Source: a virus. From it: a DNA stretch of 56,599 bases. Location: positions 1 to 56,599 of IMG/VR virus record IMGVR_UViG_3300042545_001134. One strand, written 5' to 3'. Position numbers and translations under genes: made by a program. The notes beneath the pieces are model-generated. The model saw nothing but the letters and a program-made list of their open reading frames with translations. It was not told where the DNA came from and made no database searches. Positions 9,980-38,050 of the stretch are shown in pieces; positions within the stretch are counted from its first letter, which is position 1; each line of letters opens with the position of its first letter.

Positions 9980-11110
9980 TTAACCAAAAACCCCCATCGC
10001 TTCAGCGTCCGCCATGATATCGGGGTTTACATCTGTTGATGTATTTTCATTATCTGTCGATGCAGTTGCACTTTGAGTTTTTTCTTTTGATGGTGTTAAT
10101 GCCGTAACAACACCCGCCGTTGCCACACCTACCGCCACAGCCTTTGCCCCTTGTTTTGATAATAATTTACCTAAAAATGCTTGAAGTTTAGTTAGTACAC
10201 TATCAATTGCGCGTAAAATAACTGAAATGACAGTATCTCCCTTAAATTTCTTTGCCAACGAGTTACCTACGTTTTTTAATGTGCCTTTTAATGCTGGTAT
10301 CTTAGTTGCTAATGAGTTTAACATTTTAACCATTGTAGGTGCTGCTTTTTTAACACCAACCTTTTTAATCATTGGAATTGATTTACTAAATACTTTACCA
10401 ATTGCGGCGGTCAACACTAGAGACAATGCGTCCCCAATTAAAAACATGAAAGGTGATTCCTTTCTTTCGGGGTCTTTCGGGTCATAATCATTAGTTGCGA
10501 TTTCATAGATATCTAATAACACAACAATAGCCCAAACAATTGCGTTTGTTTTTACCGCAAGTATTGAAACAACAACGTCAATAACAATACCGACACCTGT
10601 GTATAATCCACGACGAACCCATCTTAAAAATGGTAGAACTCCGTTTTTAAACACCCACTCCATACCTTTCATGATTGTACTACCGACATTCTTGACTCCT
10701 GATTTTATACCATCCCATGCAGTTGATGCTCCCGATTTAATAGTATCCCAAAGACCTTCGTTAATTATTTCACCGTTTTTAATCCATTCATAAACCATAT
10801 CTTTAGACCACTTAGTGTTCTCAAGAATATTGTTTACTTCACTATGAACACTTTCAGTGATTGTATCACCAAGTTTCGTAAGGGATTCTTTTATTAACTC
10901 GTTGAATACATGGGTATTTTCCCATATACTTCCAATTGATTTTCCATCTCCACCAGCAACAAAAACCTCGTCCATCATGATAAGGTATTTGTTATTTTCA
11001 GTTAATACAAAATCAAACACAAAATCTCTTTTTTCAACAAGACCATACATCTTTTTGATGTTCTGTTTTTCAGACTCTGTAATTACGATTTTTCTTTGAT
11101 TTGAGTACAT
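9980..11110 (-). CDS. Leader-peptide membrane protein, several spans
   Basis: 376 residues. The N-terminus RKIVITESEKQNIKKMYGL (6-24) is the shared leader. An amphipathic region around 116-150 contains INEGLW, which also fits a prohead-protease-like (I/L)-x-E cut. Hydrophobic segments follow at about 168-205, 221-243 and 327-343, with a Ser/Thr/Asn tail. It looks like a channel or membrane-active virion protein. A TATTTATA box (plus strand 11127-11134) lies 16 bases upstream. The next gene downstream (8539) may be its partner. Function inferred only. Confidence 0.55.
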   Translation of the reverse strand: MYSNQRKIVITESEKQNIKKMYGLVEKRDFVFDFVLTENNKYLIMMDEVFVAGGDGKSIGSIWENTHVFNELIKESLTKLGDTITESVHSEVNNILENTKWSKDMVYEWIKNGEIINEGLWDTIKSGASTAWDGIKSGVKNVGSTIMKGMEWVFKNGVLPFLRWVRRGLYTGVGIVIDVVVSILAVKTNAIVWAIVVLLDIYEIATNDYDPKDPERKESPFMFLIGDALSLVLTAAIGKVFSKSIPMIKKVGVKKAAPTMVKMLNSLATKIPALKGTLKNVGNSLAKKFKGDTVISVILRAIDSVLTKLQAFLGKLLSKQGAKAVAVGVATAGVVTALTPSKEKTQSATASTDNENTSTDVNPDIMADAEAMGVFG

Positions 11111-11149
11111 AATTCTTTATTATCTATATAAATATACCGATTTATGAGT

Positions 11150-11398
11150 TTATTTTAAAGGGTTTGATTTACCTCTTTTTAATAATGAACCAACAATATC
11201 CGACCATTTGGTAACACCTACTTGATTCGCAGGACCTCGAGTCACCCCACTCTCCCATTTACCAACCTCGGGATATCCCTGTTTTGAACCAGAACTCGAT
11301 GTTCCGGCGGTTGGTTGTGCGGCTGCGGGGTCCTCACCTTGTTCGGTAATCCCACTTTTTATGAGGTTATATTGTTTCTCCGATACTATTATTTTCAT
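11150..11398 (-). CDS. Short leader-peptide protein
   Basis: 82 residues from the inner ATG at 11398 (MKIIVSEKQYNLIKSGITEQ), which matches the shared leader; the longer frame begins in the promoter box. After the leader the chain is Gly/Ser/Pro-rich and probably disordered (AAAQPTAGTSSSGS) and then has a short GKWESG...WSDIVGSLL segment. A TATTTATA box lies at 11406-11413 (plus-strand TATAAATA). If the leader is cut off, only about 60 residues remain. Confidence 0.6.
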   Translation of the reverse strand: MKIIVSEKQYNLIKSGITEQGEDPAAAQPTAGTSSSGSKQGYPEVGKWESGVTRGPANQVGVTKWSDIVGSLLKRGKSNPLK

Positions 11399-11459
11399 GT
11401 TATCATATAAATATCCCAAAAAAAGTTTAAAAAAAATTTGTGATATTCTAAAAAATAAA

Positions 11460-11467
11460 TATCTTTG
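11460..11467 (+). promoter_or_regulatory. -7 box of the lipoprotein gene
   Basis: TATCTTTG, a host-type TAnnTTTG box, 31 bases before the chosen ATG. Confidence 0.55.
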
Positions 11468-11497
11468 TCTAAATAATAACCATAAATGGTAACTAAT

Positions 11498-12061
11498 ATG
11501 AAAAATTTAATCTTTATTATTGGAGTAATACTCCTTACGGGATGTGAGAAGTATGAATTGGAAAGTCCACCCAAATTAACGGGTGGTAAGTGGATTTTAA
11601 CCGATTACGATATTATCGTAATAAGTTCAATTAGTGACGTTACAGTTGTGAAGAATGATACTGTGTGTATTAATTCGTTTAGTTTACAACATGTAGATAG
11701 TGGTAGAATCGTGATGAGACAAGACTATAATGGTACCGCATTAGATAGACGTTTTATAAAAGGAAGAACAACTTGGGAATTTGATGGTAATGATAAAGAA
11801 TTGTATTGTAACTATATCCAAATGCCGGGGGTTCCTCGACCTAACCCATTTTGGGTTAACTTATCATTGTATGATAAAAATTTAGAAATACTGAACACCA
11901 CAAATGGGTCAGTTACTAATTACACGTATCAAGCAAATGATGTTGGATACCCAAGGACTTTGACATTATTAAGCCCATCAATTGTTACGGATTTGTATAT
12001 GTCTGACGGTACTCGAGATAAGGCTGTAACTGTAAAGATTACCTTATATTTTATGAGGTAG
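11498..12061 (+). CDS. Lipoprotein of unknown function
   Basis: 187 residues from ATG 11498 (an in-frame ATG at 11486 adds four residues). MKNLIFIIGVILLTGC is a lipoprotein signal peptide with lipobox LTGC; the mature protein would be lipid-anchored. The rest is beta-rich (GGKWILTDYDIIV...) like the small Bacteroidota lipocalin-type lipoproteins, but I cannot place it in a family. A host-type promoter directly precedes it, so it may be made early; phage lipoproteins often block superinfection at the cell surface, which is only a guess here. A second lipoprotein lies at 43900-44517. Confidence 0.7.
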   Translation: MKNLIFIIGVILLTGCEKYELESPPKLTGGKWILTDYDIIVISSISDVTVVKNDTVCINSFSLQHVDSGRIVMRQDYNGTALDRRFIKGRTTWEFDGNDKELYCNYIQMPGVPRPNPFWVNLSLYDKNLEILNTTNGSVTNYTYQANDVGYPRTLTLLSPSIVTDLYMSDGTRDKAVTVKITLYFMR

Positions 12062-12062
12062 A

Positions 12063-12844: not shown

Positions 12845-13155
12845 TGGAAGAGAACTTTTTATTCCTATTACAGTCGGCAAAACATATTAAATCGGGGAAT
12901 TATGCTGATGATGATATTGATTTCATCACTGAATTAGTATTAACCATTGACAATGAGATATTAATTGGGTATAATAGTACATGTAGTATTACTTCGTTGG
13001 GTAATGATTTAGAATTTTTCAATAAAATTGTTAACTTTCTACTTCGATACTATGAGGAAACCGAAGAATATGAAAAATGTGAACTTTTACAAAATAAACT
13101 AACTGAGTCTACGGACATAAAGAATCAAAAATTGACAGAAAATGAGCATAATTAA
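12841..13155 (+). CDS. Hypothetical acidic protein
   Basis: 104 residues, acidic and helical, with YEETEEYEKCELLQNKL near the C-terminus. It overlaps its neighbours on both sides (ATGA before, 14 bases after), forming a three-gene unit 12518-13285. No family recognised. Confidence 0.6.
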   Translation: MMEENFLFLLQSAKHIKSGNYADDDIDFITELVLTIDNEILIGYNSTCSITSLGNDLEFFNKIVNFLLRYYEETEEYEKCELLQNKLTESTDIKNQKLTENEHN

Positions 13156-13285
13156 AATGAGTGATGAAGAGAAACAAAAAATTCTCGAAAAACACAAACA
13201 GTCCATCAAGGACTCAAATGACAAAAAAGAAGAATTAAAGAAGGGTTTACAAAAACCTGAAAACACAAAAAAACCTAATCAATAA
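13142..13285 (+). CDS. Small charged protein, 47 residues
   Basis: ATG 13142 overlaps the previous gene by 14 bases. The product (MSIIKMSDEEKQKILEKH..., ending KKPNQ) is a highly charged helix rich in Lys and Glu. Codon use and the coupling argue that it is real. The terminator overlaps its stop codon. Confidence 0.5.
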   Translation: MSIIKMSDEEKQKILEKHKQSIKDSNDKKEELKKGLQKPENTKKPNQ

Positions 13286-16457: not shown

Positions 16458-16892
16458 TTATTTGTGTTTTATTAACAATTCACCAATAACCTCAATTAGA
16501 CCAACTAATTTCTGAAATTCAACTTGTTCGATATTCATATCTCCCTTGGTTGATTTATATAATTTGTCAAGAAGTTCTTTATATTCTTTTTTACTAGATT
16601 CAACATCAAACTTACCTTCCGCTGCCTTTTTATAATAAGGTAACTTCACCCTAAAGTGATGGTAGGTCAACAATGAGGGTCCACCCTTTTCTTTTGCGTT
16701 ATCCACAATTTTCTTAGCACCACCCATTCTTTTTTCTGCAAACGTATCGAATGATTTTGGGTGGTTATCATGTCCACATTTGTGACAGACATACAAATCG
16801 TCACCACCTTCGGACTTTTTCCATTTCCAATCACAGTGTTCACAATTAATCATCTCAGATGATTCATTTAATATGTCAAAAAATTTTATCAT
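16458..16892 (-). CDS. Leader plus zinc-ribbon protein
   Basis: 144 residues. The start MIKFFDILNES resembles the T4-like form of the shared leader (hydrophobic helix ending in E). A treble or ribbon zinc motif follows: CEHCDWKW at 18-25 and CHKCGHDN at 36-43, then a helical domain (YKKAAEGKFDVESSKKEYKELLDKL). The ribbon with SEGG between the Cys pairs is, to my knowledge, common in uncultured phage proteins. Its ATG overlaps the stop of the upstream gene by four bases. Confidence 0.6.
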   Translation of the reverse strand: MIKFFDILNESSEMINCEHCDWKWKKSEGGDDLYVCHKCGHDNHPKSFDTFAEKRMGGAKKIVDNAKEKGGPSLLTYHHFRVKLPYYKKAAEGKFDVESSKKEYKELLDKLYKSTKGDMNIEQVEFQKLVGLIEVIGELLIKHK

Positions 16893-17215
16893 TTTTTCTT
16901 TTCGTCAACTTGTTGTTGATTAGTTCCTCTTTTGTGGTCCCTTATTTTGTTTTTAAGCACTTTAAGCATTTTGTTTGCGTCATTTAAATTTGATGAGATT
17001 GAACTTAAACGTCCACTTGAGATTGTTTTTAACCCTTCAGGTATACAATCCTGTACTTTACGTAGTTCTTTAACGGTTTCCGCCAATTGACCCTCAAGTT
17101 CATCTATTTTGAATTGAACCTTATTGTAGTCGTTTCTATTGACTTTGGATGTTTCTTCAGAAATTATTTTTCTGATGGTCTCCATTATATATTCTTCGTT
17201 AATTTTGTGTTGCAT
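16889..17215 (-). CDS. Leader plus coiled-coil protein
   Basis: 108 residues from the inner ATG 17215; the upstream extension (MGEFFFRK...) runs through a terminator. MQHKINEEYIMETIRKIISEE is a version of the shared leader. Residues 30-75 form a heptad-type coiled coil (VQFKIDELEGQLAETVKELRKV), and the tail is basic and Gln-rich. A TATTTATT box lies at 17219-17226. Coupled by four bases to the zinc-ribbon gene downstream. Confidence 0.6.
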   Translation of the reverse strand: MQHKINEEYIMETIRKIISEETSKVNRNDYNKVQFKIDELEGQLAETVKELRKVQDCIPEGLKTISSGRLSSISSNLNDANKMLKVLKNKIRDHKRGTNQQQVDEKKK

Positions 17216-20287: not shown

Positions 20288-20614
20288 ATGGATTCACAGT
20301 CATTCTATACTGTTTTAATAACAGCAGTTACAGTTTTAGGTTCCGCAAGTGCTTGGAGATTCTACGAAAAAAGAGCCATGAGAAAAGAGAGGTCAGAAGA
20401 TTATATGAAAGATGAATGTCGAGAAAGGATAGCAAAATTGGAAGTCTTGTTGGAAAGGTCTTCAATAGAAAAGGATGACATGCGTTCAAAAATATTAGAC
20501 CTTACTCGTGAAGTGGCCGAACTTAGGGTAAAAGTGGAATTCTTAGAAGACAAGAACATAGAATTAAAAAAAAGTGTAACACCTAAAACAACAAGAACTA
20601 AAAAAACACAATAA
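20288..20614 (+). CDS. Membrane-anchored coiled-coil protein
   Basis: 108 residues. One N-terminal span (about 7-24), then a long charged coiled coil (34-95) and a Lys/Thr tail. The topology is that of an inner-membrane spanin or a scaffold anchor; neither can be decided. Box TATTTATT at 20259-20266. Its stop overlaps the next ATG (TAATG), so it is coupled to a leader-bearing gene. Confidence 0.6.
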   Translation: MDSQSFYTVLITAVTVLGSASAWRFYEKRAMRKERSEDYMKDECRERIAKLEVLLERSSIEKDDMRSKILDLTREVAELRVKVEFLEDKNIELKKSVTPKTTRTKKTQ

Positions 20615-21000
20615 TGAAAAAATACGTATTAACAGAATCACAATTTAAATCCTTAATGGATAAAGTAATCACCGAAGAAAGTGGTAAGGGTAAGGGATAT
20701 GGTTGTCCTCGTTCGGGTACACTTGGTCAATGTCTACAAAAATCAGGAATTAAAGGTAAACCAATGTTCAAATTAGAAGGTCCAACCCAATTATTCTCTA
20801 TGTTATATCAAGTAATGGCTGGAGATACATGGAACGGAATTATGAATACCGTATTAGGATTGGATGGATTTTATGGTAAGGATGTAAAGAGTTATGAAAG
20901 ATACTCAAATATCAATTTAAGTATGAATCCAGGTCTTGGTGGTAAAAAAGAATCAATTCAACAAGGATACGTTTTACATTTAGAAGGTCCTTACGATTAA
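20614..21000 (+). CDS. Leader-peptide protein, possible LysM-like end
   Basis: 128 residues. MKKYVLTESQFKSLMDKVITEE is a text-book copy of the shared leader, with a VITE|E site. After it, GYGCPRSGTLGQCLQKSG, then YQVMAGDTWNGIMNTVLG and a final IQQGYVLHLEG resemble a LysM repeat (xAGDTxxxI...L...NPxL...IxxGxxLxL), which binds cell-wall glycans. That reading is moderate at best. It is translationally coupled to the coiled-coil membrane protein. Confidence 0.55.
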   Translation: MKKYVLTESQFKSLMDKVITEESGKGKGYGCPRSGTLGQCLQKSGIKGKPMFKLEGPTQLFSMLYQVMAGDTWNGIMNTVLGLDGFYGKDVKSYERYSNINLSMNPGLGGKKESIQQGYVLHLEGPYD

Positions 21001-22035: not shown

Positions 22036-23559
22036 ATGAAGTTCAACGAAATTATAACAAATGTCATTTATGAAGAGATAAAGAATAAAAAACTCTTCAA
22101 CGCATTAATGGACAAGTGGAAGATGGAAAAACCTAACCTATCTCCAGATGAGGCGGAAACGTTAATCACCTCTTTCCAACGAATCCAAAATGGTTTAAAA
22201 CCAGAAAAACCACAAGTCTTTTCATTCCTAAGCAGGTTCGATGGAGAACAAGGTTTTGAAAGATTCGACCCCAATAATCTAAAGGATATTACAAAGTATA
22301 GTTACCAACAAATATTATTTTTAGTTGGTGAATATGATGATGCTGAGGAAGAAGTTCAAGGTGATGTATTTGTCGGTAAGGACACTAAACCAACCGAAGA
22401 AAGGATTGCAGCATCTAAAGAACTATGGAGTGGAGAAGAAAACCTAATCATAAACGAGGACGGATTAAGAGTATACAGTATACCTGACCAAAAAACCTCC
22501 ATGAAATATGGTTATTATGTTCAAGTAATAAACAAGGCCATACCAAATAGTAACGGTCCTTGGTGTGTAACGTGGAGAGCCGACCAAGGAACAAACATGT
22601 GGGGTAATTATCGAAACAATAGAAGTTTTTATTTCGTTATTGACGAATCAAAAGATACCACAGATAAATACTATTTGGGGGCACTACAAAGAGATGTTAC
22701 AGTTAAATCGGATTTTAGATTAACCTCAACACAAAATAACGGGGATAATCCAATGACTTGGGAGGAAATTGTTCAAATTTACCCTAAACTTGATAACCAC
22801 AAAGATAAGATTGTTGTAAAACCTTACTCTCAAAATGAATTAGAGGAAAAAAGTATAGTGGGTCAGATTACCGAGAGAGTAGGTCATCAATATGAATTTA
22901 AAAGACTTGGTAAAGACCTTAAAAGGGCATACATCAATAACCAAGGTGTACTTAGTAGTCCAGAATCTTGGAGGTCGATGGATGATAAACTAAGAGCGCT
23001 TTATATTTTATCAACAACTGAGTATCAAGTAAAAGATAAGTTTAATAACTTTGATTTTGTTAATGAAATTAGGAAAGTTGGTAGTGAATTTAACCTTTTA
23101 AATAATCGTTTAAAACAAGTAGGTTTAAGTGGTGTTGGTGTTATATATGACCATTTAATGGCCACTGAATTCAGAGTTGCGAGAGTGTCGGCTGACAATG
23201 AAAACATCAGATTATATGAAAGTAAAATCAACGGTAAATCGGGATTATACAACGTAAGAGCAACCGATTGGGTTGAATTGGGGGGACACAGATACGAACC
23301 ATTATACGAACAAATCGATACTGATTTATTCTTTGATGATGAGGGAGAAACGTATGTTGTTGAGACATTCAGTAAATCAATGCAACCATCTAATGATTCC
23401 TTTTATTCTGTTTATTCAGTGGGTGATTCAAATCCCGAATTAAATTCACATTTCCTATCCTCAACGGCGTGGGAAAAATTAAAAAGTAATTTAAAATCTG
23501 AAGACGAAGATGTCTCTAAGAAACCCGGTGAAGAAACCGATATAAAAGAATACAAATAA
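22036..23559 (+). CDS. Large leader-bearing protein with W-C-x-T-W motif
   Basis: 507 residues. MKFNEIITNVIYEEIKNK fits the T4-like leader form. Residues about 176-182 PWCVTWRADQ followed by RSFYFVIDES resemble the EWCTTWGPQ...HLYILIKN block of the 29042-30859 protein, a motif I remember from many phage hypotheticals. The rest is mixed and acidic, with a charged C-terminal tail. No catalytic role known. Box TATTTATT at 22010-22017. Ends at a bidirectional terminator shared with the endolysin. Confidence 0.55.
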   Translation: MKFNEIITNVIYEEIKNKKLFNALMDKWKMEKPNLSPDEAETLITSFQRIQNGLKPEKPQVFSFLSRFDGEQGFERFDPNNLKDITKYSYQQILFLVGEYDDAEEEVQGDVFVGKDTKPTEERIAASKELWSGEENLIINEDGLRVYSIPDQKTSMKYGYYVQVINKAIPNSNGPWCVTWRADQGTNMWGNYRNNRSFYFVIDESKDTTDKYYLGALQRDVTVKSDFRLTSTQNNGDNPMTWEEIVQIYPKLDNHKDKIVVKPYSQNELEEKSIVGQITERVGHQYEFKRLGKDLKRAYINNQGVLSSPESWRSMDDKLRALYILSTTEYQVKDKFNNFDFVNEIRKVGSEFNLLNNRLKQVGLSGVGVIYDHLMATEFRVARVSADNENIRLYESKINGKSGLYNVRATDWVELGGHRYEPLYEQIDTDLFFDDEGETYVVETFSKSMQPSNDSFYSVYSVGDSNPELNSHFLSSTAWEKLKSNLKSEDEDVSKKPGEETDIKEYK

Positions 23560-25684: not shown

Positions 25685-26143
25685 ATGGCTAAGTTTATAT
25701 TCACAGAATCACAAATGAAAATAATAAAAACTCAGTTAAATGAGAGTAGAGAAGATACATACGATGTTGGTAAATGTGACATTAATCTTTATTATGGTGA
25801 ATTAACATATAAAGGACACGAGATTAACGACATCAGTGCTCCTGAAATTAGTTTTACATTTTATATTGATATGGATATTAAGAGTTATGGTATAAGAGGT
25901 ATTTCTCTTTATAATCCTGAAGGTCCTTCTGAAATTGAGTTGGAGGTTTCTTATTATACCGGTGAAGACGATGATGAGAGTGAAGACATAGTAACAATAC
26001 CATTAGATTGGGAAAATGTTAACGAAGATGATGGCGATAATGGGTGGATAGGTTATGAAAACCGAATCGAGATTAGATTAAAAAATGATGAAAGTGGTAA
26101 TATTGTTGTTGATTCGATGACCCTTTTCAAAAATAGTTTTTAA
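25685..26143 (+). CDS. Leader-peptide protein, acidic beta-rich
   Basis: 152 residues. MAKFIFTESQMKIIKTQLNES is the shared leader with an LNE|S site. The rest is acidic, with beta-strands and runs of Asp/Glu (GEDDDESEDIVT, NEDDGDNG); possibly a calcium- or protein-binding domain. TATTTATA at 25662-25669, 15 bases before the start. No family recognised. Confidence 0.6.
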   Translation: MAKFIFTESQMKIIKTQLNESREDTYDVGKCDINLYYGELTYKGHEINDISAPEISFTFYIDMDIKSYGIRGISLYNPEGPSEIELEVSYYTGEDDDESEDIVTIPLDWENVNEDDGDNGWIGYENRIEIRLKNDESGNIVVDSMTLFKNSF

Positions 26144-27485: not shown

Positions 27486-29042
27486 TTAATTTATTTCGCT
27501 TAATCTATCATTTAGGTGTGAGTTAAAATCTTCATCGTCAATATCTGGTGACCACCTGTCATCTAAACTAAATTTTGGTTTATCATAATAACTTCCCAAC
27601 ATTTCATCGAATGCACAACTTGCACTTTCATCACATCTTTCCATTATTTCGTCAACCTCTTCTTCACCTAACCCCATATCACTAATCACCTTATTTAAAT
27701 CAATACGAATTGTTACCCCCTCGTCATTTAATTTAGTAACATCCCCGTATTCTTCTAAAGTACTACGTAGTTCCTTCATCGCATAATCGTAATATGAACT
27801 ATTCGCCGAATCAGAATATGCGGAACCTAATGAATTTTTAATTTCATAATCATTATCATACTCATCTATTAGAGACTCCAATGATTCCTCAGGGTCGTAA
27901 TCCTCACCCGCTCTTTGTTGGATTATGTTACGTATGGTCTGTGAGTTTTCTTCGTTTGTGTAATACTCCAATGCACCTTTCCAATCGTCGTGGTAACCTT
28001 CCATTAAATCCCATATATCTCCCGATAATAGAGTTTCAATATACGATGTTTTACCAGTGTTACCATTCTTATCTTTCCACTGTCTAACCGTCCAATCACC
28101 ATCAACGTAGTTACCAACATAGGTTGGTTCGATATCTAAATCAAAAACCATATCAATTTCTTGATACTGACTTGAATCTAAAATACCCATCTTAACTAAT
28201 TGTCTTTTTAGTTGTCTCGTGTTAAACAATTCGGGACGCGAATCATAAACTTTTTTAATATCTGACTCAGGTAAATCTGTTATTTTAAAATCGGTTGAAC
28301 TTTGATATTCGGAACCAAATCCTTGTATTGTTTCTTTATTGATAATTAAATCAACAATATATGGGTGAAACTCCTCTTTTGGTTTGGAGTTTTTTGTTCC
28401 CTTCATTTGGTAAATAATACCATCACTACTCCCCACCGCAGCAGTCAGGTGACTTTTATTGATTGTATATTGTTCGTTGATTCTTTTGGTTTCCCTTAAT
28501 GAGTAAATTGTGTTATCTGAACTTGTTCTACCGCAATGACCCATTCTATTACATTCCTCATCAGAATTATTTGTTTCGAGGTCAGACCAATAAAACCCAA
28601 TACCGTCTTTTCTATAGTCACGAAGAATTGTATTTTCCTCAATATAATTAATCGCCCCCGACCCCGTATCTAACGATTCGTGCCACTCTCTTGATTTTTT
28701 ATATAAATTACCAAAACCAACATTTTTATATTCATTAACGTTACCGTTTAGTCCAACACGAATCCAATCCATAATGGATACAATTTCACTTCTTCTTCCT
28801 CGTACACCCGAACCTTTATTGAAAACACCAATCGCCTCTTGTTTTGTGATGGGCTCTTCTTGCTCCATTGAACGAATTAGAACTGTATATTCAATTAATT
28901 TGTTACCTAACCATACAGATAGGGCACCCGATAATTTAGATAATAAATCGGCATTATCCTCACTGAAACCAAGTTTTTGGATAAGAACATCCTTCTTACT
29001 TGCCTCAATTATTAATTCTTCTATTAGGTTTATAATCTTCAT
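27486..29042 (-). CDS. Large leader-bearing protein with H-C-G / HLTAAVG motifs
   Basis: 518 residues. MKIINLIEELIIEA is strikingly like the T4 capsid-targeting peptide (hydrophobic, ending x-x-E-A). GHCGRTSSDNTIYSLRE, then SHLTAAVGSSDGIIYQMKG and HPYIVDLI form a block (about 168-245) common in phage hypotheticals, with invariant His, Cys and Lys-rich positions; its chemistry is unknown to me. The C-terminal half is very acidic. Its ATG overlaps the stop of the previous gene by one base. Confidence 0.55.
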   Translation of the reverse strand: MKIINLIEELIIEASKKDVLIQKLGFSEDNADLLSKLSGALSVWLGNKLIEYTVLIRSMEQEEPITKQEAIGVFNKGSGVRGRRSEIVSIMDWIRVGLNGNVNEYKNVGFGNLYKKSREWHESLDTGSGAINYIEENTILRDYRKDGIGFYWSDLETNNSDEECNRMGHCGRTSSDNTIYSLRETKRINEQYTINKSHLTAAVGSSDGIIYQMKGTKNSKPKEEFHPYIVDLIINKETIQGFGSEYQSSTDFKITDLPESDIKKVYDSRPELFNTRQLKRQLVKMGILDSSQYQEIDMVFDLDIEPTYVGNYVDGDWTVRQWKDKNGNTGKTSYIETLLSGDIWDLMEGYHDDWKGALEYYTNEENSQTIRNIIQQRAGEDYDPEESLESLIDEYDNDYEIKNSLGSAYSDSANSSYYDYAMKELRSTLEEYGDVTKLNDEGVTIRIDLNKVISDMGLGEEEVDEIMERCDESASCAFDEMLGSYYDKPKFSLDDRWSPDIDDEDFNSHLNDRLSEIN

Positions 29043-30859
29043 TATAATAAATTCTTGATGTTTTTTACATTCTCGAACAATTTATAATTGGTCGCATATG
29101 TTGCGAGATTTTCAATTTTAACCGGTCCACTTTCACGAGTACCTTTCTTTTTATCACCCAGCACGATGACGATAGACCCCTTCTCACAATCAATTTTCAT
29201 TGAGGGTAAAAAAATATCAAACTCCTCGTTTTCAATTCTATCGGAACCTTTGAATACTTTCTGTACAACATCATTTAAAATTTTACGATATTCAGCACAC
29301 GTCTTCACACCTTCAAAGTCATTGAATACTTTTTCAAAATAATCCTCAATGGGTTTTTGTAAATCTTCATATGTCACCTCATCGGTTTGGTGGTCCCAAA
29401 TACCCTCATAATCGTTATCAATATTGTAGTAACTTGCATAACCATCCAAAACATCAATCATATAATTTTCTTTTCCGTCGATGATTGTGTAATCTTTTTT
29501 TACTAGATATAGTAAAAAATAAGGTATTTTAACTTTTACAAGATTCTCTTTGGTGTAACTATCAAAGTCCATGTATTTTACAATATCATCAACTTGAGCC
29601 TGTGCTGCGTTCTCAAGGTGTATAGTATTTTTATTTACATAATCACTGGAATACCATTCCCAAATATCATCATCTTGAGTGAAATTATCATAGTGGTCCA
29701 TTTTAAATTGTTCGTAATCCGAATACCCGTATAATGTCTTTAATTCTTCACCATTTCTTTTATAATATTCCTCCAAATAGTTAGCCAACACATCTTTTAT
29801 GTAATCACTATCTTCATTGTACATTCTATCCCACAAGACTTCACTCCCATTATTAGCCTCACCCTCATAATAACTCAATGTATCTCGAGTGGTATTTAAA
29901 CTTCCGCCATATGAGGTTATAAATTCAACATTTAACCACTCACCTTCAATTTCCAACGATGCCAAATCATCATCCGTTATAATCTTTTCTAATGCATCAA
30001 TATCTTTATTGATTAATGCGGCGATTATTGGGTTGTTTTTTGCTGATGTGGAAACCAATTTATTTACCAATATCGTAGTATCGTCATCATCAAGGGCATT
30101 TAACCTTTCGATTTGAGTTTTTAGTGTACTCTCATCTACATCATCACCAATAAGTGACGGGAAAAAGAAGTGTTTCACCTCCTCATTCTTATTTAAAAAT
30201 TCTTGTATGTTGATTCTCGCATCTTCTTTATCCATATATTGTTTGGATTGAAAGTGGAGTTGATATTTTTCATTAATATCTGAGTTCTTTATTAAAATAT
30301 AAAGATGCCCCTGTGAGTGATATCTTGAATATAAACTACCTCTATCCTGATGTTTTGGGTTTAAAGATTGTGGACCCCAAGTTGTACACCATTCAGTGTT
30401 TACTCCTAAGTAACAAGATGCCTTCTCCGTGAATGGTACAAAAATCGTCCATAACTCACTTTGAAAGACCTTCCTATACTCTTTCTCATCTAATGCGGAG
30501 ATAATCGAACCAAGGTCTCTTGTGTCCTTCGCATAGTATCCTTTTACTACGTCATATAAATCATTTAATGATTTAATCTTATTTGAATCGAGTGAGACAC
30601 TATGTTTGTAAACATAATCCAAATATTCCTTTGCTCTTGGTAAATCCTCAAGTTTTAATGTTTTCTTTCTATATAAGTTAATCAACAATTTGGCAAACTT
30701 ACCAATTCGTTGAATACCATTTTCGTTTGATTTACTTTGAGGGTCAGACATAACAACTTGATTGAACTCTTCTCTTGGAATGTCCTTATAGTATGAGTTA
30801 TAAATCTCATCGGGAGTCGCCTCCAATAGTAATGATTCAAATAAATCCTCTAATCTCAT
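29042..30859 (-). CDS. Large leader-bearing protein with EWCTTW motif
   Basis: 605 residues. MRLEDLFESLLLEATPDE again looks like a T4-type capsid-targeting leader with an LLE|A cut. Residues about 147-215 (SCYLGVNTEWCTTWGPQ, GHLYILIKNSDINEKYQLHFQ) form a domain seen in many phage proteins. The remainder is acidic, with long Asp/Tyr-rich helices. It shares one base with the genes on both sides, forming one operon of three leader proteins. Confidence 0.55.
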   Translation of the reverse strand: MRLEDLFESLLLEATPDEIYNSYYKDIPREEFNQVVMSDPQSKSNENGIQRIGKFAKLLINLYRKKTLKLEDLPRAKEYLDYVYKHSVSLDSNKIKSLNDLYDVVKGYYAKDTRDLGSIISALDEKEYRKVFQSELWTIFVPFTEKASCYLGVNTEWCTTWGPQSLNPKHQDRGSLYSRYHSQGHLYILIKNSDINEKYQLHFQSKQYMDKEDARINIQEFLNKNEEVKHFFFPSLIGDDVDESTLKTQIERLNALDDDDTTILVNKLVSTSAKNNPIIAALINKDIDALEKIITDDDLASLEIEGEWLNVEFITSYGGSLNTTRDTLSYYEGEANNGSEVLWDRMYNEDSDYIKDVLANYLEEYYKRNGEELKTLYGYSDYEQFKMDHYDNFTQDDDIWEWYSSDYVNKNTIHLENAAQAQVDDIVKYMDFDSYTKENLVKVKIPYFLLYLVKKDYTIIDGKENYMIDVLDGYASYYNIDNDYEGIWDHQTDEVTYEDLQKPIEDYFEKVFNDFEGVKTCAEYRKILNDVVQKVFKGSDRIENEEFDIFLPSMKIDCEKGSIVIVLGDKKKGTRESGPVKIENLATYATNYKLFENVKNIKNLL

Positions 30860-32178
30860 TATTGTGTTTTAATTGTTTTACTAAACGGTGGTATTGGTGT
30901 TAATTCAAATCTTCTATTTGGTGCGGTATCTTCCACCTTGGTTGGGGCTTGTGCTGTCCACCCTGGCCCAAACTTAGTTGTTTCACCCGCACCATAGAAA
31001 CCAAAACTAAGTCCTGTTCCCGTTAATTTTTCATTTATAATATCTGCAATTCGTTTTGCTCTTGCCTCAGATAAACATTTATTATATTCACCTCTTGTTG
31101 CCACTGATTTACACGGAGCATATTTCCCCGTTATTTTTTGTTCTGAATTGGCATCAATACTTGCGTAACCTACAATTTTAGGTGACGACTTCATAATGTG
31201 GTCCGTAAGTGGTTTACCGTGTTGATTAGCATTTGTTTTCATTTTATTCACAAACCCATCAATTTGACCCATTGATTTTCCTTCATCAATAAAGTTAGTC
31301 TCATCAAATTTAAAAACGTCAACTAATGAGAATTCAACTTTAATTACGGTCTCACTTGGAGTTTTACCCGTTGTTGTTGCGGTTCTTGGTACATCTCCCC
31401 CAATTTTCATATTGGGGTTACTATTGAAAACAAATTTCTGTAATTCTAAAAATAAACCTCCCGATTGTAGATACGCATAAACATCATTGTTCACTTTCAT
31501 TGGTAACCTATTATACTTAAAATATGTACCTAATGGGTATTCATCACCCGCGGCAACTGACTCTTTAGATGTGGCCCTATCAGGTTTACCCGTAAAACCC
31601 AATATAAAACGTCCACCATTCTGACGGTCAGTTTTAATGGTAACATCAACCATACCCTTTTCTATTTCCAACAAGTATCTTGGGTTTTTTTCAAAAAACA
31701 TCGCCACTTTAGGGTCCTCTTTTAATATGTCAGCGGCGAACGCCGTTGAGACTGCCCCAACTTTGAACATTCCGTCAAAATCTCCAACATAATAGTATTC
31801 TTTTGTTTCCTCAAGAGGTACCTCACCCTCAACCACTTTACCATTTTCAGTACCTTTAATAACAACAGAGTATGAGTCATTTGGACCTTGTTCCACTCGA
31901 ATTGTAAGTAAGTTTAATAGTTCAGTCTGTTTGTTTGGAAGAATTTCCATATTCATTCTCTCCTCGATATATCTTATCACATCGGCATCAGAAATAAAAT
32001 CAGGTTGTTCGTTAATAACTTTACTAACCAATTTAACTAAATCCGATTCGGTTAATTTAACCATTTTTTGTTTGGTCGTTGGTGGGGACACCGTTCTATC
32101 TGAGGATGTTGGTTGCTCAAGTATATTTTGAACCATATTCTTTAAATCATTCTCAGTAAGTTTTATAATTTTCGCCAT
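30859..32178 (-). CDS. OmpA-like protein with two leader copies
   Basis: 439 residues. Two leaders stand in tandem: AKIIKLTENDLKNMVQNILEQ (2-22) and, after a short Pro/Ser linker, MVKLTESDLVKLVSKVINEQ (39-58). The C-terminal part is OmpA-like: KCLSEARAKRIADIINEKL, then GAGETTKFGPGW and TAPNRRFEL, the peptidoglycan-binding motif with its Asn-Arg-Arg end. The middle is beta-rich. It heads the three-gene operon. TATTTATA box at 32195-32202. A wall-binding virion protein is the best inference. Confidence 0.65.
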   Translation of the reverse strand: MAKIIKLTENDLKNMVQNILEQPTSSDRTVSPPTTKQKMVKLTESDLVKLVSKVINEQPDFISDADVIRYIEERMNMEILPNKQTELLNLLTIRVEQGPNDSYSVVIKGTENGKVVEGEVPLEETKEYYYVGDFDGMFKVGAVSTAFAADILKEDPKVAMFFEKNPRYLLEIEKGMVDVTIKTDRQNGGRFILGFTGKPDRATSKESVAAGDEYPLGTYFKYNRLPMKVNNDVYAYLQSGGLFLELQKFVFNSNPNMKIGGDVPRTATTTGKTPSETVIKVEFSLVDVFKFDETNFIDEGKSMGQIDGFVNKMKTNANQHGKPLTDHIMKSSPKIVGYASIDANSEQKITGKYAPCKSVATRGEYNKCLSEARAKRIADIINEKLTGTGLSFGFYGAGETTKFGPGWTAQAPTKVEDTAPNRRFELTPIPPFSKTIKTQ

Positions 32179-32341: not shown

Positions 32342-32611
32342 ATGAAAGTAATTGTTTCTGAAAAAACGTTAAGTAAGGTAATTGGTAAGTTAGTTACCGA
32401 AAACTATGAATCTGAGAAATTATACCACAGAGAGTCGTTGGTGAAGAAATTATTGGTTAAAAACCAAAAAGGTTTCTTTGTTGCTCCTAAAGAGATTAGG
32501 TCATTAATCGAAAGATTACCGTATATTGAATGTACTGATTCCCAAGGTAACCCCCAAACTTGTACTAAAATACCCGAAGTACTCTACGTTTATTTAACCG
32601 GAAGATATTAA
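32342..32611 (+). CDS. Short leader-peptide protein
   Basis: 89 residues. MKVIVSEKTLSKVIGKLVTE is the shared leader. The remaining 65 residues (SLVKKLLVKNQKGFFVAPKEIRSLIERLPYIECTD, ending VYLTGRY) look like one small alpha/beta domain, not recognised. The ATG follows the CTAG palindrome by three bases, so this large hairpin would sit in or directly before the mRNA leader. Confidence 0.6.
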   Translation: MKVIVSEKTLSKVIGKLVTENYESEKLYHRESLVKKLLVKNQKGFFVAPKEIRSLIERLPYIECTDSQGNPQTCTKIPEVLYVYLTGRY

Positions 32612-32665: not shown

Positions 32666-32884
32666 TTAAAAGAATCTTTTAAAACTTGCTTTGATTTTTT
32701 CAACTGATTCGTTCACTAAATCATCAGTCTCATTTTCAATACCGTCTTCAGAATCGCATTCCTCACACACTTCCTCTTCGTTTTGTTCCATTTCAACTGA
32801 TTCGTCAGTTTCTTGTGTAACGAATGAATGACGACGTTCCATAATCATTTTCAATTGACTTTCTGTGATTTTAATTTTTTTCAT
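32666..32884 (-). CDS. Short leader-peptide protein, acidic
   Basis: 72 residues. MKKIKITESQLKMIMERR is the cleanest leader copy. The rest is highly acidic (EQNEEEVCEECDSEDGIENETDD) with a CEEC pair and a basic amphipathic tail (EKIKASFKRFF). TATTTATA box at 32899-32906. Little room for a folded domain, so the leader is the main recognisable part. Confidence 0.6.
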   Translation of the reverse strand: MKKIKITESQLKMIMERRHSFVTQETDESVEMEQNEEEVCEECDSEDGIENETDDLVNESVEKIKASFKRFF

Positions 32885-32929: not shown

Positions 32930-33442
32930 TTACTTAAAGTAACCATCGATTCCAAATTTACGTACAAGTCTATTTCTTCTTTTACATGCTGGATTCTGTC
33001 TCGTACCTCCACGGAAGATTAATTTACCCAATTTTACAATAATAATAATCGCAATTAAACCGGCAACAACTATAACCGCAACCGCAGGTACTGCCACTCC
33101 GGCAATTAAAATTGTCGCACCAACTTGTTCTTGAACAACCGGTTGTTGTGTTATTGGTTGTTCAGGTTGTTTTTTAATTGATTTAACCTGTTTTAAGACC
33201 ATAATAAGGTCATTAACATCCATTGTATCCAATTTAGATTTAATGTTGTTTACAACGTCCGCATACTCCGCTGGTGGTTCCTCAATTGGACACTCAGGTG
33301 ATACTTCCATTTTCTCTTCGGGTGTTAATACGATTCCTGCCTGAGCCAACGCATTGTCAAATTGTTGTTCTTCTGTTGATTCGGTATAAAGTCCTCTGAT
33401 ACGGTTTCTTTCTTCTTCTGTTAATGTAAATTTTTGTCCCAT
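32930..33442 (-). CDS. Leader-peptide protein with one membrane span
   Basis: 170 residues from the inner ATG 33442; the longer frame reads through the promoter box. KFTLTEEERNRIRGLYTES is a variant leader. A Pro/Gln-rich middle (QPEQPITQQPVVQEQ) precedes a long hydrophobic span (about 117-143) and a basic C-terminus (KRRNRLVRKFGIDGYFK). The same order (leader, helical part, PxQ linker, span) occurs in 34617-35246, so they are probably related in role. TATTTATA at 33455-33462. Confidence 0.6.
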   Translation of the reverse strand: MGQKFTLTEEERNRIRGLYTESTEEQQFDNALAQAGIVLTPEEKMEVSPECPIEEPPAEYADVVNNIKSKLDTMDVNDLIMVLKQVKSIKKQPEQPITQQPVVQEQVGATILIAGVAVPAVAVIVVAGLIAIIIIVKLGKLIFRGGTRQNPACKRRNRLVRKFGIDGYFK

Positions 33443-33553: not shown

Positions 33554-34498
33554 TTAATTTGTCGGTTGCTGTACAAGACCTGGTGTCACTGTTTCAGGAT
33601 TTGATACGGTTGGTTTCAACGGTTCCATTGGTTTTAGTTCCTCAGTATCTCTTGATAAAAATTTACGTCCATTAGTGTTCCAAGCTTTTTGAGTTCTTGG
33701 ACCAAAAATACCGTATCCCTTACCATTTTGACCTTTATTAATAATACCACCATTATATCCCACGGCCCAACCTTTAGCATTTACGTCTAACCAATCTTGG
33801 AATAATTTAATTCCATTGGCATCTTTTAATTCTTTTGGTGTTGGTATCAATACTTTTTTAGGTGCAACTTTAAATTCTGGGTCTTTACATGTGTAATTTG
33901 CCATCGTTTTATTTGCCAACATTTTTCTACCGTTAGCAAAATACGTAACACCATTTATTAAGTATGACATTGTACCATCACTATATTTTTGTTGTTTTGC
34001 ACCTTTAAATCCCGTTACACATGGATACTTTAACCAAGGGTCAGTCGCGGGTGCGGCAGGTGCTGCTACAGGTGTCGCTAATAATTTGAAACTATTGGTT
34101 TTAAAATACTTAACAGATGGTTTGTATTTGTCGGCATTTGTTTCATAGGTATTATTTACCCCAATACTTTTCAAGTGTTTAGAAACCATTTCCACGGTGT
34201 ATAAATTATCCACGCCCATATCACTATTAATCCATCCCGCAACATCTAACTCTGAATATAGTTTTTTAAGTTCGGCATTTACTAATGAAAATTGTGCAGC
34301 GTCTTTAATCTTCAAAACTCCATTTCTAAATTTTGTGGGGTCAGTACCGGGACCACTAACTGATGCGTGTATCTCTTTCGCGATACCAATATTTATGTCC
34401 ACGGCTTGTTCATTTAATGGATTACCATATCCATGTTTCTTATGCATATTAAGGATTTCTTCCTTTTCTGACTCTGTTAGTAAAAAATTTTTATACAT
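33554..34498 (-). CDS. Leader-peptide protein with peptidoglycan-binding-like end
   Basis: 314 residues. NFLLTESEKEEILNMHKKHG then NPLNEQ is a longer leader with an LNE|Q site. An Ala/Pro linker lies about 165-175. Near the C-terminus LFQDWLDVN...GYGIFGPRTQKAWNTNGRKF (about 240-290) matches the peptidoglycan-binding repeat (FQxWL...GxFGPxTxxAW). A wall-directed virion protein is a fair guess. TATTTATA at 34513-34520. Confidence 0.6.
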   Translation of the reverse strand: MYKNFLLTESEKEEILNMHKKHGYGNPLNEQAVDINIGIAKEIHASVSGPGTDPTKFRNGVLKIKDAAQFSLVNAELKKLYSELDVAGWINSDMGVDNLYTVEMVSKHLKSIGVNNTYETNADKYKPSVKYFKTNSFKLLATPVAAPAAPATDPWLKYPCVTGFKGAKQQKYSDGTMSYLINGVTYFANGRKMLANKTMANYTCKDPEFKVAPKKVLIPTPKELKDANGIKLFQDWLDVNAKGWAVGYNGGIINKGQNGKGYGIFGPRTQKAWNTNGRKFLSRDTEELKPMEPLKPTVSNPETVTPGLVQQPTN

Positions 34499-34616: not shown

Positions 34617-35246
34617 TTACCCGCAATTCCATAATATTGGGTCAGTTTCAAATAGGTTTTTAAAATCCAAGAATATAAGTTCCGCTAGTTTCACCAAGAA
34701 ACTCTTTTGGATATCTAAACCACAACTAACACTTATACTTCCAAGACCTTCGTAAATGTGACACCTTAAAAGACGTAAAATTAACCACGCACCAATTGCG
34801 ATGAATACACCTACAGGTAATGCCAATAAAAATACTTTAACTGATTCAAATGCCGCCATTGCTCCCGCCTGTTCATTCATTTGTGCCGGTTGTTCTTGTG
34901 GTGTTGGTTGTTGTTTATCTTGTCTTTTTTGTCTTCTCATCGCCTTTAGTTCCTGAATCATCAGTTTTAACTCATCTTTCGATGCGGTTGGGAGAACGGG
35001 ATTAAGAATTGATGCAACTTTCTTTTTTGCATTTGTAATTTCGGGAGTCTCGGCGGTTGAACTTGAAACATCCTCTTTAGATACCCCAAGTTGACTTATC
35101 TCGGATGCCAATGTTTTAACAAATTGTAACCCCTGAGCGGATTCGGGACTAAAACAATTTGATTCATCCTCGTTGATTTTACCTTTACAGCAACCCATGA
35201 TAGATTTAATTCTACCTATTTCTTCGTTTAATGTTTGTTTTTTCAT
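34617..35246 (-). CDS. Leader-peptide protein with membrane span
   Basis: 209 residues from inner ATG 35246. MKKQTLNEEIGRIKSIMG...KINEDE is the second leader subtype (LNEEhxRxKxIMG, then I-N-E). A helical middle ends with KAMRRQKRQDKQQPTPQEQP and a hydrophobic span follows (about 144-168), then a Cys-containing end. The longer frame would start inside the previous gene. Variant box TATAAATG (plus 35254-35261). Related in design to 32930-33442. Confidence 0.6.
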   Translation of the reverse strand: MKKQTLNEEIGRIKSIMGCCKGKINEDESNCFSPESAQGLQFVKTLASEISQLGVSKEDVSSSTAETPEITNAKKKVASILNPVLPTASKDELKLMIQELKAMRRQKRQDKQQPTPQEQPAQMNEQAGAMAAFESVKVFLLALPVGVFIAIGAWLILRLLRCHIYEGLGSISVSCGLDIQKSFLVKLAELIFLDFKNLFETDPILWNCG

Positions 35247-35250
35247 TATT

Positions 35251-36303
35251 TTATATAAATGGTTGAATAAATTTAGCATAATTAGTTCCACCATCAGGTC
35301 TACTTTCTTTGATGCCGAAATAATATAACATTTCGGGGTCATTAATACGAACTTCTTTTTGTGGAACTGTGTTCATGTTAGTAATAAATTTCTTGTCATA
35401 GGCAAAACGAACCACCCTTTCAATTTTATCGTCATCACCCCAATAAAATACCCACCTAAGGATAGGTGCGGTCCATGGGTCAGCAACCACATTTGTGTTC
35501 CATTTAATCTCATATGCGGTCATGTGTTTGTTGTCCCACTTATTTCTAAGTAACTTTTCACGTTGTTTAACAAACATATCGTCTACCGCCACCATACCAA
35601 GAGAATTTTTACCGTTAGCATAATACGACCCAGTTAAAATCATATTTGCGTTAATGTCTGTATATGTTTCAATAGTATCGGTACTCGTTTTACCCGTTGT
35701 AGTTACGGTTGTTATGTCTTTCTTGTATTTGAATACAAGTGTAACGTTCATAAACTGACCTGGGTTGGGATATTTGGTTGTATCTCTTACTTCATCCTTA
35801 ACACCACCTGTATTCAATACGATGGTTTTAAACGCAACTTTCGCAACATCAGAATCGGAGATTTTATTTTTTTTAAGGAAGTTGAATAGTGCGGGGCGAA
35901 ACGACTGTGCTCTTAACAACGCCAATTGAACATTCTTTTTATACAGGGGGTCCTCAAGGTTTTGACCTTTTGGTGCAACTGCGTAATTATTTTCCTTATC
36001 GTATGGTGTTACCTTACCTAACCATGTGTTACTTGCACCGGCTGTAAAGGTTCCATTAGTAAAAGTCATTTCACCACTTTTTAACATAGCGGGACCATTC
36101 GGTGTTGCATTAATCTTTTCCAATAATGTTTTGGTGAAGTCAGCAAGAAATGGAGTTGGGTCCGACGAGTTAACGGGATACGCCGCCTTAAAGTTAAAAC
36201 TAACTTTAACTTCAATAGGGGTTGTTACCTCATTTAATAATGATGTCCCATTCTTACCGATTAACGATTTAAGTTGGGACTCCGTGATGATGATTTTTCT
36301 CAT
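35251..36303 (-). CDS. Leader-peptide protein, OmpA-like relative
   Basis: 350 residues. RKIIITESQLKSLIGKNGTS then LLNEV is a full leader with an LNE|V site. The body is beta-rich; LALLRAQSFRPALFNFLKK...IVLNTGGVKDEVRDTTKYPNPGQF (about 135-195) is reminiscent of the OmpA-family core (RA...L, N-x-G-x-x-D-x-x-R). The C-terminal YYFGIKESRPDGGTNY is unrecognised. TATTTATT box at 36317-36324. Confidence 0.55.
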   Translation of the reverse strand: MRKIIITESQLKSLIGKNGTSLLNEVTTPIEVKVSFNFKAAYPVNSSDPTPFLADFTKTLLEKINATPNGPAMLKSGEMTFTNGTFTAGASNTWLGKVTPYDKENNYAVAPKGQNLEDPLYKKNVQLALLRAQSFRPALFNFLKKNKISDSDVAKVAFKTIVLNTGGVKDEVRDTTKYPNPGQFMNVTLVFKYKKDITTVTTTGKTSTDTIETYTDINANMILTGSYYANGKNSLGMVAVDDMFVKQREKLLRNKWDNKHMTAYEIKWNTNVVADPWTAPILRWVFYWGDDDKIERVVRFAYDKKFITNMNTVPQKEVRINDPEMLYYFGIKESRPDGGTNYAKFIQPFI

Positions 36304-36529: not shown

Positions 36530-36712
36530 TTAATTCCTATGAAGAATAACTTTTTTCAGTGAATCGGATTTTTCGATTGTAATTTCAATGTTAATGTTTT
36601 TCTCACCTCTAAGACGGGCAAGTTCCTTTTGTTGAAAGTAACAGATGATAAGGAGACTTATTGCTCCCGCCATACTGATGTGTTTTTGATATTTTTGAAA
36701 AAATTTAATCAT
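36530..36712 (-). CDS. Small membrane protein, 60 residues
   Basis: A basic N-terminus, one span (ISMAGAISLLIICYFQQ, about 12-28) and a charged cytoplasmic tail (LARLRGEKNINIEITIEKSDSL). Positive-inside rule gives N-in. It lies seven bases from the methyltransferase stop. Could be a holin or superinfection-exclusion peptide; undecided. Confidence 0.55.
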   Translation of the reverse strand: MIKFFQKYQKHISMAGAISLLIICYFQQKELARLRGEKNINIEITIEKSDSLKKVILHRN

Positions 36713-36719
36713 TGTTCTT

Positions 36720-37268
36720 TTATTTTTTTATCCACCATTGTTGTTGATTACCAATGGCATTTATGTTGTCCTCTCCAAACATTTCGTTTACCGACTCATA
36801 TACACCAGGCCAACAGGTGCAGTAATCATCACCACAAATAAACCCACCGGGTTTTACTTTGGGTAACCAAGACTGTATATCGTTTTTAACGGAATTATAA
36901 TCATGAGCCCCGTCGATGTACACAATATCAAAATACTCATCTTCGTATAATGACGATTGTGAAACGGAATTATTCTTATGGATGTTTATAAGGTCTTTTA
37001 AGGGTATTAAATTGTTTCGAGTTATAGTTTCATAGTCCACACCCTTAACGTGTTCTGGTGACCCCTCAAAGTGGTCAATGGCGTGATATTCGAAATCAAC
37101 ACCTTTATTGATTAGGTCGACACATATCAGTGCGGTACCTCTACCCTGGTAAACCCCAATCTCGGCGATTTTTAATTTACCTGACGGGTTATCTACAATT
37201 GTATTAAATAATTCCCCTTGTTCATGTGGTTGAGCCCAACCTTCTATATTTTGATAGAAATGTTCCAT
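36720..37268 (-). CDS. Class I SAM-dependent methyltransferase
   Basis: 182 residues. EIGVYQGRGTALICVDL (36-52, motif I), DFEYHAIDHFEG (acidic end of strand 2), DIVYIDGAHDY (motif with DG-H) and LPKVKPGGFICGDDY match the Methyltransf_24-type family. These enzymes often act on sugars or small molecules, which fits the glycosyltransferases in the window. Target not readable. TATTTATT box at 37285-37292. Confidence 0.8.
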   Translation of the reverse strand: MEHFYQNIEGWAQPHEQGELFNTIVDNPSGKLKIAEIGVYQGRGTALICVDLINKGVDFEYHAIDHFEGSPEHVKGVDYETITRNNLIPLKDLINIHKNNSVSQSSLYEDEYFDIVYIDGAHDYNSVKNDIQSWLPKVKPGGFICGDDYCTCWPGVYESVNEMFGEDNINAIGNQQQWWIKK

Positions 37269-37326
37269 AATTAAGATTTACACAAATAAATATGGTCCCC
37301 TTTAATTAACGGTCCACAATCTCATT

Positions 37327-37346
37327 CCGGCGTACGAGGTTCATTT
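37327..37346. repeat. 20-base direct repeat, copy 1
   Basis: CCGGCGTACGAGGTTCATTT, identical to 39631-39650. It overlaps the stop codon of the small membrane gene (TGA inside TTCATTT on the minus strand). Confidence 0.85.
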
Positions 37347-37580
37347 TTTAGAGAACATTCTCAATGCACTTATCATAAGGATGGTCATACCAACCCCGAG
37401 GGTGCAAGAAACGTCAAAAGACATATTATGAATTCCTGAATGGAACAAAGATGCGAACACCACGGCGGTTAGAATATAAATCCAAAACAACTTAATGAAA
37501 TGATACATCCCAACTGCCAGTATGGTAAATGCGCCCAAAAAGAATGCAAATACAACTTCTAATAATTTTATCATAAACAT
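37341..37580 (-). CDS. Small membrane protein with three spans
   Basis: 79 residues, almost entirely hydrophobic: about 4-24, 28-46 and 54-73, separated by short polar turns; ends MFSKK. No family recognised. It could be a holin by size. Stop inside the 20-base repeat. A terminator (37606-37632) separates it from the gene upstream. Confidence 0.55.
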   Translation of the reverse strand: MFMIKLLEVVFAFFLGAFTILAVGMYHFIKLFWIYILTAVVFASLFHSGIHNMSFDVSCTLGVGMTILMISALRMFSKK

Positions 37581-37605
37581 AAATAGAATATATATGGAAC
37601 AAAAA

Positions 37606-37632
37606 ACCCCACCTTTAAGGGGTAGGGTTTTA
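37606..37632 (-). terminator. Terminator
   Basis: ACCCC-ACCTTTA-AGGGGT; T-rich on both sides (TTTT on plus after GGG, TTTTTT on minus), so it may be bidirectional. Confidence 0.6.
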
Positions 37633-37651
37633 ATGATTTATTTTAACTTTA

Positions 37652-38050
37652 TTATTTTCTAATCGAAAGAGCACTATCCAATTCGTCATTCGTACCCTCG
37701 AATCCTGGCATTTCAGTATTATCCCTATAGTCCGTTCTACCATCATCCTCGGATTTTGTGAAACCCATAAATTTATATGCCTCTTCATCACTTTGGTTTA
37801 AAACCATTTTATTAAGACTTGTATAAAACTGTTTCATGAATGTCCATTTAATACCACCTTCTTGTTGGGGACCAACAAAATGACTATATTCATCCACTAA
37901 CATTTTTGAAATTTTGTTTGCGGCCTCATCTGCCGCCATCATAGCGATTTGAAGACCACCTAAACCTTCAGATAGTGTGGATTCATTATTAATCCCCATT
38001 ATTTCTTTAACTCGGGATAACTCTTCGTTCAATTTTATTTTGTTTGACAT
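37652..38050 (-). CDS. Leader-peptide protein, second subtype
   Basis: 132 residues from the inner ATG 38050. KIKLNEELSRVKEIMGINNES followed by TLSEG is the LNEExxRxKxIMG subtype, as in 34617-35246. The rest is helical and acidic (EEAYKFMGFTKSEDDGRTD), no family known. TATTTATT box at 38066-38073. Confidence 0.6.
   Translation of the reverse strand: MSNKIKLNEELSRVKEIMGINNESTLSEGLGGLQIAMMAADEAANKISKMLVDEYSHFVGPQQEGGIKWTFMKQFYTSLNKMVLNQSDEEAYKFMGFTKSEDDGRTDYRDNTEMPGFEGTNDELDSALSIRK

Follow-up and report, generated by a model that had tools for sequence, protein, structure and literature searches.

Bases 1-56599 of viral record G000 (310,691 bases), which we call the window, raise the question of why proteins with unrelated bodies begin with similar short leaders. 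A preliminary description of this DNA had named 17 such proteins between positions 9980 and 38050 and had favored a modular targeting propeptide over import into a phage compartment. We analyzed the window together with the rest of the record, over which ~390 open reading frames (ORFs) were called, and found the propeptide proposal supported by a gp21-type protease gene, a matching site in the gp23-type major capsid protein (MCP), swaps of leaders between bodies and a common late-type motif. It is thus highly probable that the leaders of this giant freshwater phage, distantly related to T4, act as capsid-targeting propeptides in the manner of the capsid-targeting sequence (CTS) of phage T4.

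Leader classes and chance tests

All 17 start coordinates proved correct when checked against the ORFs; those at 17215, 33442, 35246 and 38050 are internal ATGs within longer ORFs. The leader occurs far beyond chance, but it is not a single one: there are at least four interchangeable classes, ITESQLxxLI (TESQ), NLQExIxRIKxMMG (MMG), TESExxxI..HGYxxxLNE (TESE) and a short T4-like xxLLxEA. Their common grammar is M, an early h-x-E motif (h, hydrophobic) and an amphipathic stretch closed by another h-x-E, behind which an unrelated body follows. The (L/I/V)-x-E that had been described after the leader was seen in ~14 of the 17 window leaders.

A search of the whole contig with a leader profile had been suggested, and it showed enrichment at N-termini: a leave-one-out position-specific scoring matrix of the TESQ-like core scored at least 10 bits at 8 of 389 N-termini, compared to 2 of 1443 internal windows of G000. 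Further carriers were found outside positions 9980-38050, e.g., at record positions 87834, 92582, 170978, 258647, 272752, 274804 and 275214; the repertoire comprises 17 carriers in the window and ~25 in the genome. Similar N-termini on non-homologous bodies (score of at least 44) formed 7 pairs in G000, compared to 0 in shuffled and 2-3 in internal controls; the same test gave 31 pairs in the relative G003 (287 kb; 3, 8 and 2 in controls) and 12 in the cultured Flavobacterium phage immuto (0, 1 and 1 in controls). It should be noted that some high-scoring pairs are not leader pairs.

To survey viral contigs, two DNA patterns were run with no start codon required. The pattern ExIxRIKx[IM]MG matched at least 120 stretches in at least 108 distinct proteins; among the matches listed, the motif lies 3-12 residues past the first ATG in 98 of 108 proteins, and the remaining ones mostly have an ATG just ahead of the motif within a longer frame. 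The pattern ITESQLKxhI matched 60 stretches in 41 distinct proteins, all 41 with the motif in the first 17 residues. Together, the two patterns yielded at least about 150 distinct proteins, and in nearly all of them the motif is N-terminal. The reversed MMG pattern produced a single match in viral contigs, and the MMG pattern had 13 matches in 257 Gb of bacterial and archaeal genomes, none with leader anatomy. The open-access papers searched contained no previous description of these leaders.

Leader ends, head protease and capsid protein

The motif [ILVM]-x-E follows the MMG core within 8 residues in 90 of 96 proteins among the matches listed, compared to 12.6% of equal body windows, and the TESQ core within 14 residues in 30 of 36 proteins, compared to 12.1% of body windows. 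For example, among 29 distinct full-length orthologs of the 11150 family, an indel-rich spacer of variable length separates the core MKIIISEKQYKLIL from the body GYPEVGKWESGV. Despite these indels, [ILV]-x-E before Q or E is kept in 29 of 29 orthologs, as counted by eye; a protease site is expected to show such a pattern.

The preliminary description had proposed looking for a gp21-like protease, and G000 was found to encode a head maturation protease (phrog_207, E=6.5e-40). Its T4-type structural module lies at ~186-290 kb, and matches were obtained to a gp23-type major head protein (E=1e-65) and to a portal (E=1.6e-65). The best-ranked annotated relatives of the head proteins are an uncultured 484-kb phage, Rhodothermus phage RM378, Flavobacterium phage immuto and Microcystis phage Mel-JY01. 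Because the best MCP matches are to RM378, immuto and the uncultured phage, and because Far-T4 phages are known from freshwater (PMC4360716), the sequence suggests that G000 belongs to the Far-T4 phages and that its host is among the Bacteroidota, a placement based on these matches.

In T4, the cut of gp23 is documented at E65/A66 (the slash denotes the bond), which delimits a 65-residue propeptide (PMC5694885). In alignments to T4 gp23, this position reads LINE/A in G000 and IVSE/A in immuto, and LINE/AA is constant at the gp23 N-termini of 68 relatives. Leader ends thus share h-x-E with the propeptide of the phage's own MCP. The protease gp21 was found in 22 of the 41 leader contigs searched. 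Among the 19 contigs lacking gp21, 17 were searched for gp23, with no match in any of them; as a positive control, gp23 was present in 8 of 8 gp21-positive leader contigs tested. All tested leader contigs that show the head module have both gp21 and gp23, and those without gp21 look like fragments without this module. Record G013 (L152; 268,739 bases) contains two gp21 and two gp23 sets, representing either two joined phages or a real duplication.

These data also bear on whether the leader, uncut, directs proteins elsewhere, i.e., to a phage nucleus-like compartment, the cell envelope or the tail. Some carriers are membrane-like, OmpA-like or peptidoglycan-binding, and the 9980 family has no conserved site, as such a role would have it. 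However, the leaders have no signal-peptide-like hydrophobic core, and their ends match the capsid propeptide. The import into a phage compartment that had been offered as the alternative found no support: a T4-type head module is present, and replication-type proteins, namely the ribonucleotide reductase, recombinase and helicase of G000 (named from sequence alone), are not among the carriers found. We consider this explanation very improbable.

Leader swapping and modular bodies

The body of the protein at 16458-16892(-), GAxKIxxxAKEKGGxxLLTYHHFxVKLPYY, bears a short T4-like leader in G000, G003 and immuto, a TESQ leader in L287, L300, L305 and L274, and an MMG leader in L225, L201 and L196. 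The 27486 family has a short leader in the window and MMG leaders in L165, and its homology starts at the predicted bond (IIE/ASKK, ILE/ANRK, LVE/ASKL and LTE/GSKL). For the leader of the protein at 33554-34498(-), two relatives have the leader alone in common, ...HGYxxxLNE/Q, on unrelated bodies. Because the leader classes are interchangeable, any gene could therefore turn into cargo by gaining a leader. A zinc-ribbon module, CGWSW..EGGDDPY.CHKCG (window 16458-16892; loci L378-L456), stands directly after many leaders and internal h-x-E sites, and looks like a mobile domain.

Enzyme-like bodies among the carriers include a CCA-adding polymerase and a P-loop protein. The CCA-adding enzyme/poly(A) polymerase of G003 (L117:9613-10791) has a TESQ leader; the Pfam PolyA_pol domain begins at residue 48, and the alignments to the 15 best-listed phage homologs all start at residue 30 or later, leaving the leader uncovered. 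This suggests that a tRNA-repair enzyme is carried in the head.

The nature of the bodies also bears on a second explanation, in which the leaders belong, as propeptides, to proteins of the prohead core (scaffold), and the carriers serve in head assembly and are for the most part degraded or lost, as are T4 gp67, gp68 and gp22. T4 gp22, gp68 and gp24 also open with short h-x-E motifs captured by the same regular expression, and some carriers (e.g., 32666) are small and acidic. Nevertheless, the bodies are diverse, vary between relatives and include the CCA-adding polymerase and the P-loop protein; cargo fits them better, and we regard a core-protein role as unlikely.

Late-type promoter motif and leader DNA

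The motif TATTTAT lies ~11-31 bases upstream of the start in several leader genes. Among genes with a gap of 40 nt or more ahead of the start, it precedes 9 of 10 window leader genes, compared to 43 of 199 others (p=1.7e-5). Since TATTTAT reads the same backwards, the motif on the opposite strand served as a control and was observed in 0 of 10 leader genes and 11 of 199 others. The motif is also upstream of the scaffold, gp21, portal, sheath and tube genes (in the case of gp23, it is missing from the 60 bases ahead of the gene), and it hardly occurs at 40-86 kb of G000. A weak late-sigma (gp55-like) match was detected at record positions 266252-266950 (phrog_234, E=0.0011). TATTTAT(A) is a candidate for the late promoter in this group of phages, and its presence at both gene sets is motif evidence for a possible late expression of the leader genes with the head genes. 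In the window, TATTTAT(A) occurs, e.g., just upstream of the minus-strand starts 11110, 32884, 34498, 36303 and 38050.

The DNA encoding MMG leaders (L146-L264) has unusual, non-random codons (AAC, CTA, ATA), with a median identity to the consensus of ~87%, and the conservation is limited to the leader and the next ~10-20 bases, as if this leader spreads as a DNA cassette. Either recent cassette spread or codon selection near the start would add to conservation at the protein level.

This codon usage is among the points in favor of a third explanation, in which the leader would be a generic N-terminal helix or a cassette for starting translation, without targeting and with T-E-S-Q as the helix N-cap, and would have spread by recombination of similar 5' ends. 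TESQ and TEEE can serve as helix-capping sequences, and the native N-terminus of a G003 dehydratase is similar. Such a cassette leaves unexplained the conservation of the h-x-E end across indels, the swapping of unrelated leader classes on one body, the lack of leader-like matches in bacterial genomes and the link to gp21/gp23 contigs, and we hold it to be quite improbable.

Proposed pathway and points against it

Returning to capsid targeting, the pathway that we propose is as follows. Late in infection, a protein would be made with an amphipathic leader of 10-30 residues; the leader would bind the prohead core or scaffold, and the carrier would become enclosed in the prohead. A gp21-type protease would then cleave after [ILV]-x-E at the leader end, and the mature body would be kept inside the head until it enters the next cell as cargo, ejected together with the DNA.

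Several observations weigh against this proposal. At P1', most leaders have S, E, Q, D or N, in contrast to the E/A of T4 IPIII and gp23. The h-x-E near the leader start, which could represent a second cleavage site or cap a helix, is not explained by the pathway. In the 9980 family, the leader is kept in orthologs and the h-x-E site is not conserved; the sites in carriers 32666 and 32930 are doubtful. The general two-E regular expression is only ~3-fold enriched over forced internal starts in G000, and is too loose for counting carriers. ITESQ-like starts also arise by chance or in native enzymes: the G003 pterin-4a-carbinolamine dehydratase starts with IIITESQM, and was rejected as a carrier because this is the enzyme's own N-terminus, with no h-x-E. 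With looser leader calls, enrichment of the late motif is p=0.026 in G003 and none in immuto, and conservation of MMG leaders may be partly at the DNA level. Finally, the open-access literature yielded no virion proteomics of any leader-bearing relative, immuto included.

Leaders along the window

We list the leaders below with the residue that follows the predicted bond. The first gene, 9980-11110(-), encodes a membrane/tape-measure-like protein (376 amino acids, aa) with the TESE-class leader MYSNQRKIVITESEKQNIKKMYGLVE at 11033..11110. It is followed by the 82-aa protein at 11150-11398(-), the site of which is kept in all orthologs (leader MKIIVSEKQYNLIKSGITE/Q, 11342..11398). At 13142-13285, there is a stand-alone 47-aa ORF, MSIIKMSDEEKQKILEKHKQ, that resembles a free TESE-class leader. 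The zinc-ribbon/helical protein at 16458-16892(-) has the short T4-CTS-like leader MIKFFDILNE/S (16863..16892), and its neighbor at 16889-17215(-) has MQHKINEEYIMETIRKIISE/E (17156..17215). On the plus strand, the protein at 20614-21000 begins with the TESQ leader MKKYVLTESQFKSLMDKVITE/E (20614..20676), that at 22036-23559 with the short leader MKFNEIITNVIYE/E (22036..22074; orthologs end LLE/E before VKNKKL), and that at 25685-26143 with the TESQ leader MAKFIFTESQMKIIKTQLNE/S (25685..25744; the ortholog L169 has SLDE/D).

Two short leaders on the minus strand follow: MKIINLIEELIIE/A at 29004..29042 (protein 27486-29042), where E/(A or G)-S-K is also the junction between leader and body in homologs of the MMG class, and MRLEDLFESLLLE/A at 30821..30859 (protein 29042-30859), where E/ATP is invariant in 5 orthologs and residues 1-13 of the AlphaFold model have pLDDT<50. 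The OmpA-like protein at 30859-32178(-) has two leaders in tandem, MAKIIKLTENDLKNMVQNILE/Q (32116..32178) and MVKLTESDLVKLVSKVINE/Q (32008..32064). The leader MKVIVSEKTLSKVIGKLVTE/N (32342..32401) opens the plus-strand protein at 32342-32611. All remaining leaders are on the minus strand: the TESQ leader MKKIKITESQLKMIME, with an uncertain end (32837..32884), of the 72-aa acidic protein at 32666-32884; the TEEE leader MGQKFTLTEEERNRIRGLYTE/S (33380..33442) of the membrane protein at 32930-33442, in which Y replaces I/L/V at P3; the TESE leader MYKNFLLTESEKEEILNMHKKHGYGNPLNE/Q (34409..34498) of the protein at 33554-34498; the leader MKKQTLNEEIGRIKSIMGCCKGKINE/D (35169..35246) of the protein at 34617-35246, assigned to the MMG class as defined by the pattern scans; the TESQ leader MRKIIITESQLKSLIGKNGTSLLNE/V (36229..36303) of the protein at 35251-36303; and the MMG-class leader MSNKIKLNEELSRVKEIMGINNESTLSE/G (37967..38050) of the protein at 37652-38050.

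Pfam and PHROGs searches gave a name to almost none of the window bodies. AlphaFold models of the 16458 and 29042 carriers, built from very shallow alignments, had no fold match in PDB and show only poor order of residues 1-13. The large carriers at 22036-23559, 27486-29042 and 29042-30859 have no Pfam family, and some contain a WCTxW-like motif, which is seen repeatedly in these phages. The window also contains four tRNAs (149-605) and a tmRNA gene (6451-6857; tag GNVYNNMEVAGLLATSKVAA).

Significance and comparison with known systems

We give even chances to a broader proposal, that a widespread uncultivated T4-related clade has made the CTS an open loading code, in which interchangeable leaders pack and inject dozens of proteins per genome (CCA-adding enzyme, P-loop and cell-wall-binding proteins among them), the leader perhaps being a recombination cassette that gains cargo. 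Known T4 internal proteins (IPI, Alt) counter host defenses or take over the host. Because the leaders are readable from sequence alone, they would allow the injected proteins to be listed for phages that have not been grown. If so, each genome would offer dozens of candidates, mostly without a known family, for anti-defense or takeover activity, and the leaders would be candidates for tagging proteins that are to be loaded into large phage heads.

T4 internal proteins enter the core via a CTS of 10-19 residues that is removed by gp21, and many are ejected with the DNA; among T-even phages their bodies are diverse and the CTS is the sole shared part (PMC9026906, PMC5694885, PMC3012670). IPIII was required for infecting one tested host strain (PMC9391042). 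The leaders described here resemble the CTS of IPI, IPII, IPIII and Alt in being short, N-terminal, attached to unrelated bodies, terminated by h-x-E and accompanied by gp21/gp23-type head genes (PMC9026906, PMC5694885); the IPI N-terminus, MKTFKEF...TITE/A, has the same layout. They differ in falling into at least four classes, most without clear likeness to MKTYQEFIAEA, in the many more carriers per genome (four internal proteins in T4), in enzyme bodies and in P1' rarely being A. The TESQ and MMG profiles had no match in the 59% of the T4 genome searched, and likeness to MKTYQEFIAEA was not found at the sequence level for these classes; the short class alone resembles the T4 CTS.

In phiKZ and SPN3US, the head protease likewise removes N-terminal propeptides ending in E from inner-head (ejection) proteins (PMC5694885); several of these propeptides exceed 100 residues and no shared short module has been described, whereas the leaders here are modular and have 10-30 residues. 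Immuto (NC_055915) is a cultured relative with gp21 and gp23, and its MCP pieces are 40% identical. It has recurrent leaders of its own, MENFDLKKFLVENKLTxNSKxLKE and MKKQILSEQFxRMQxLAGIITE, on unrelated bodies and with h-x-E ends, although their sequences are mostly specific to this phage. The scheme itself is known from the T4 CTS; what is new here is the leader classes, the larger repertoire of carriers and the putative enzyme cargo.

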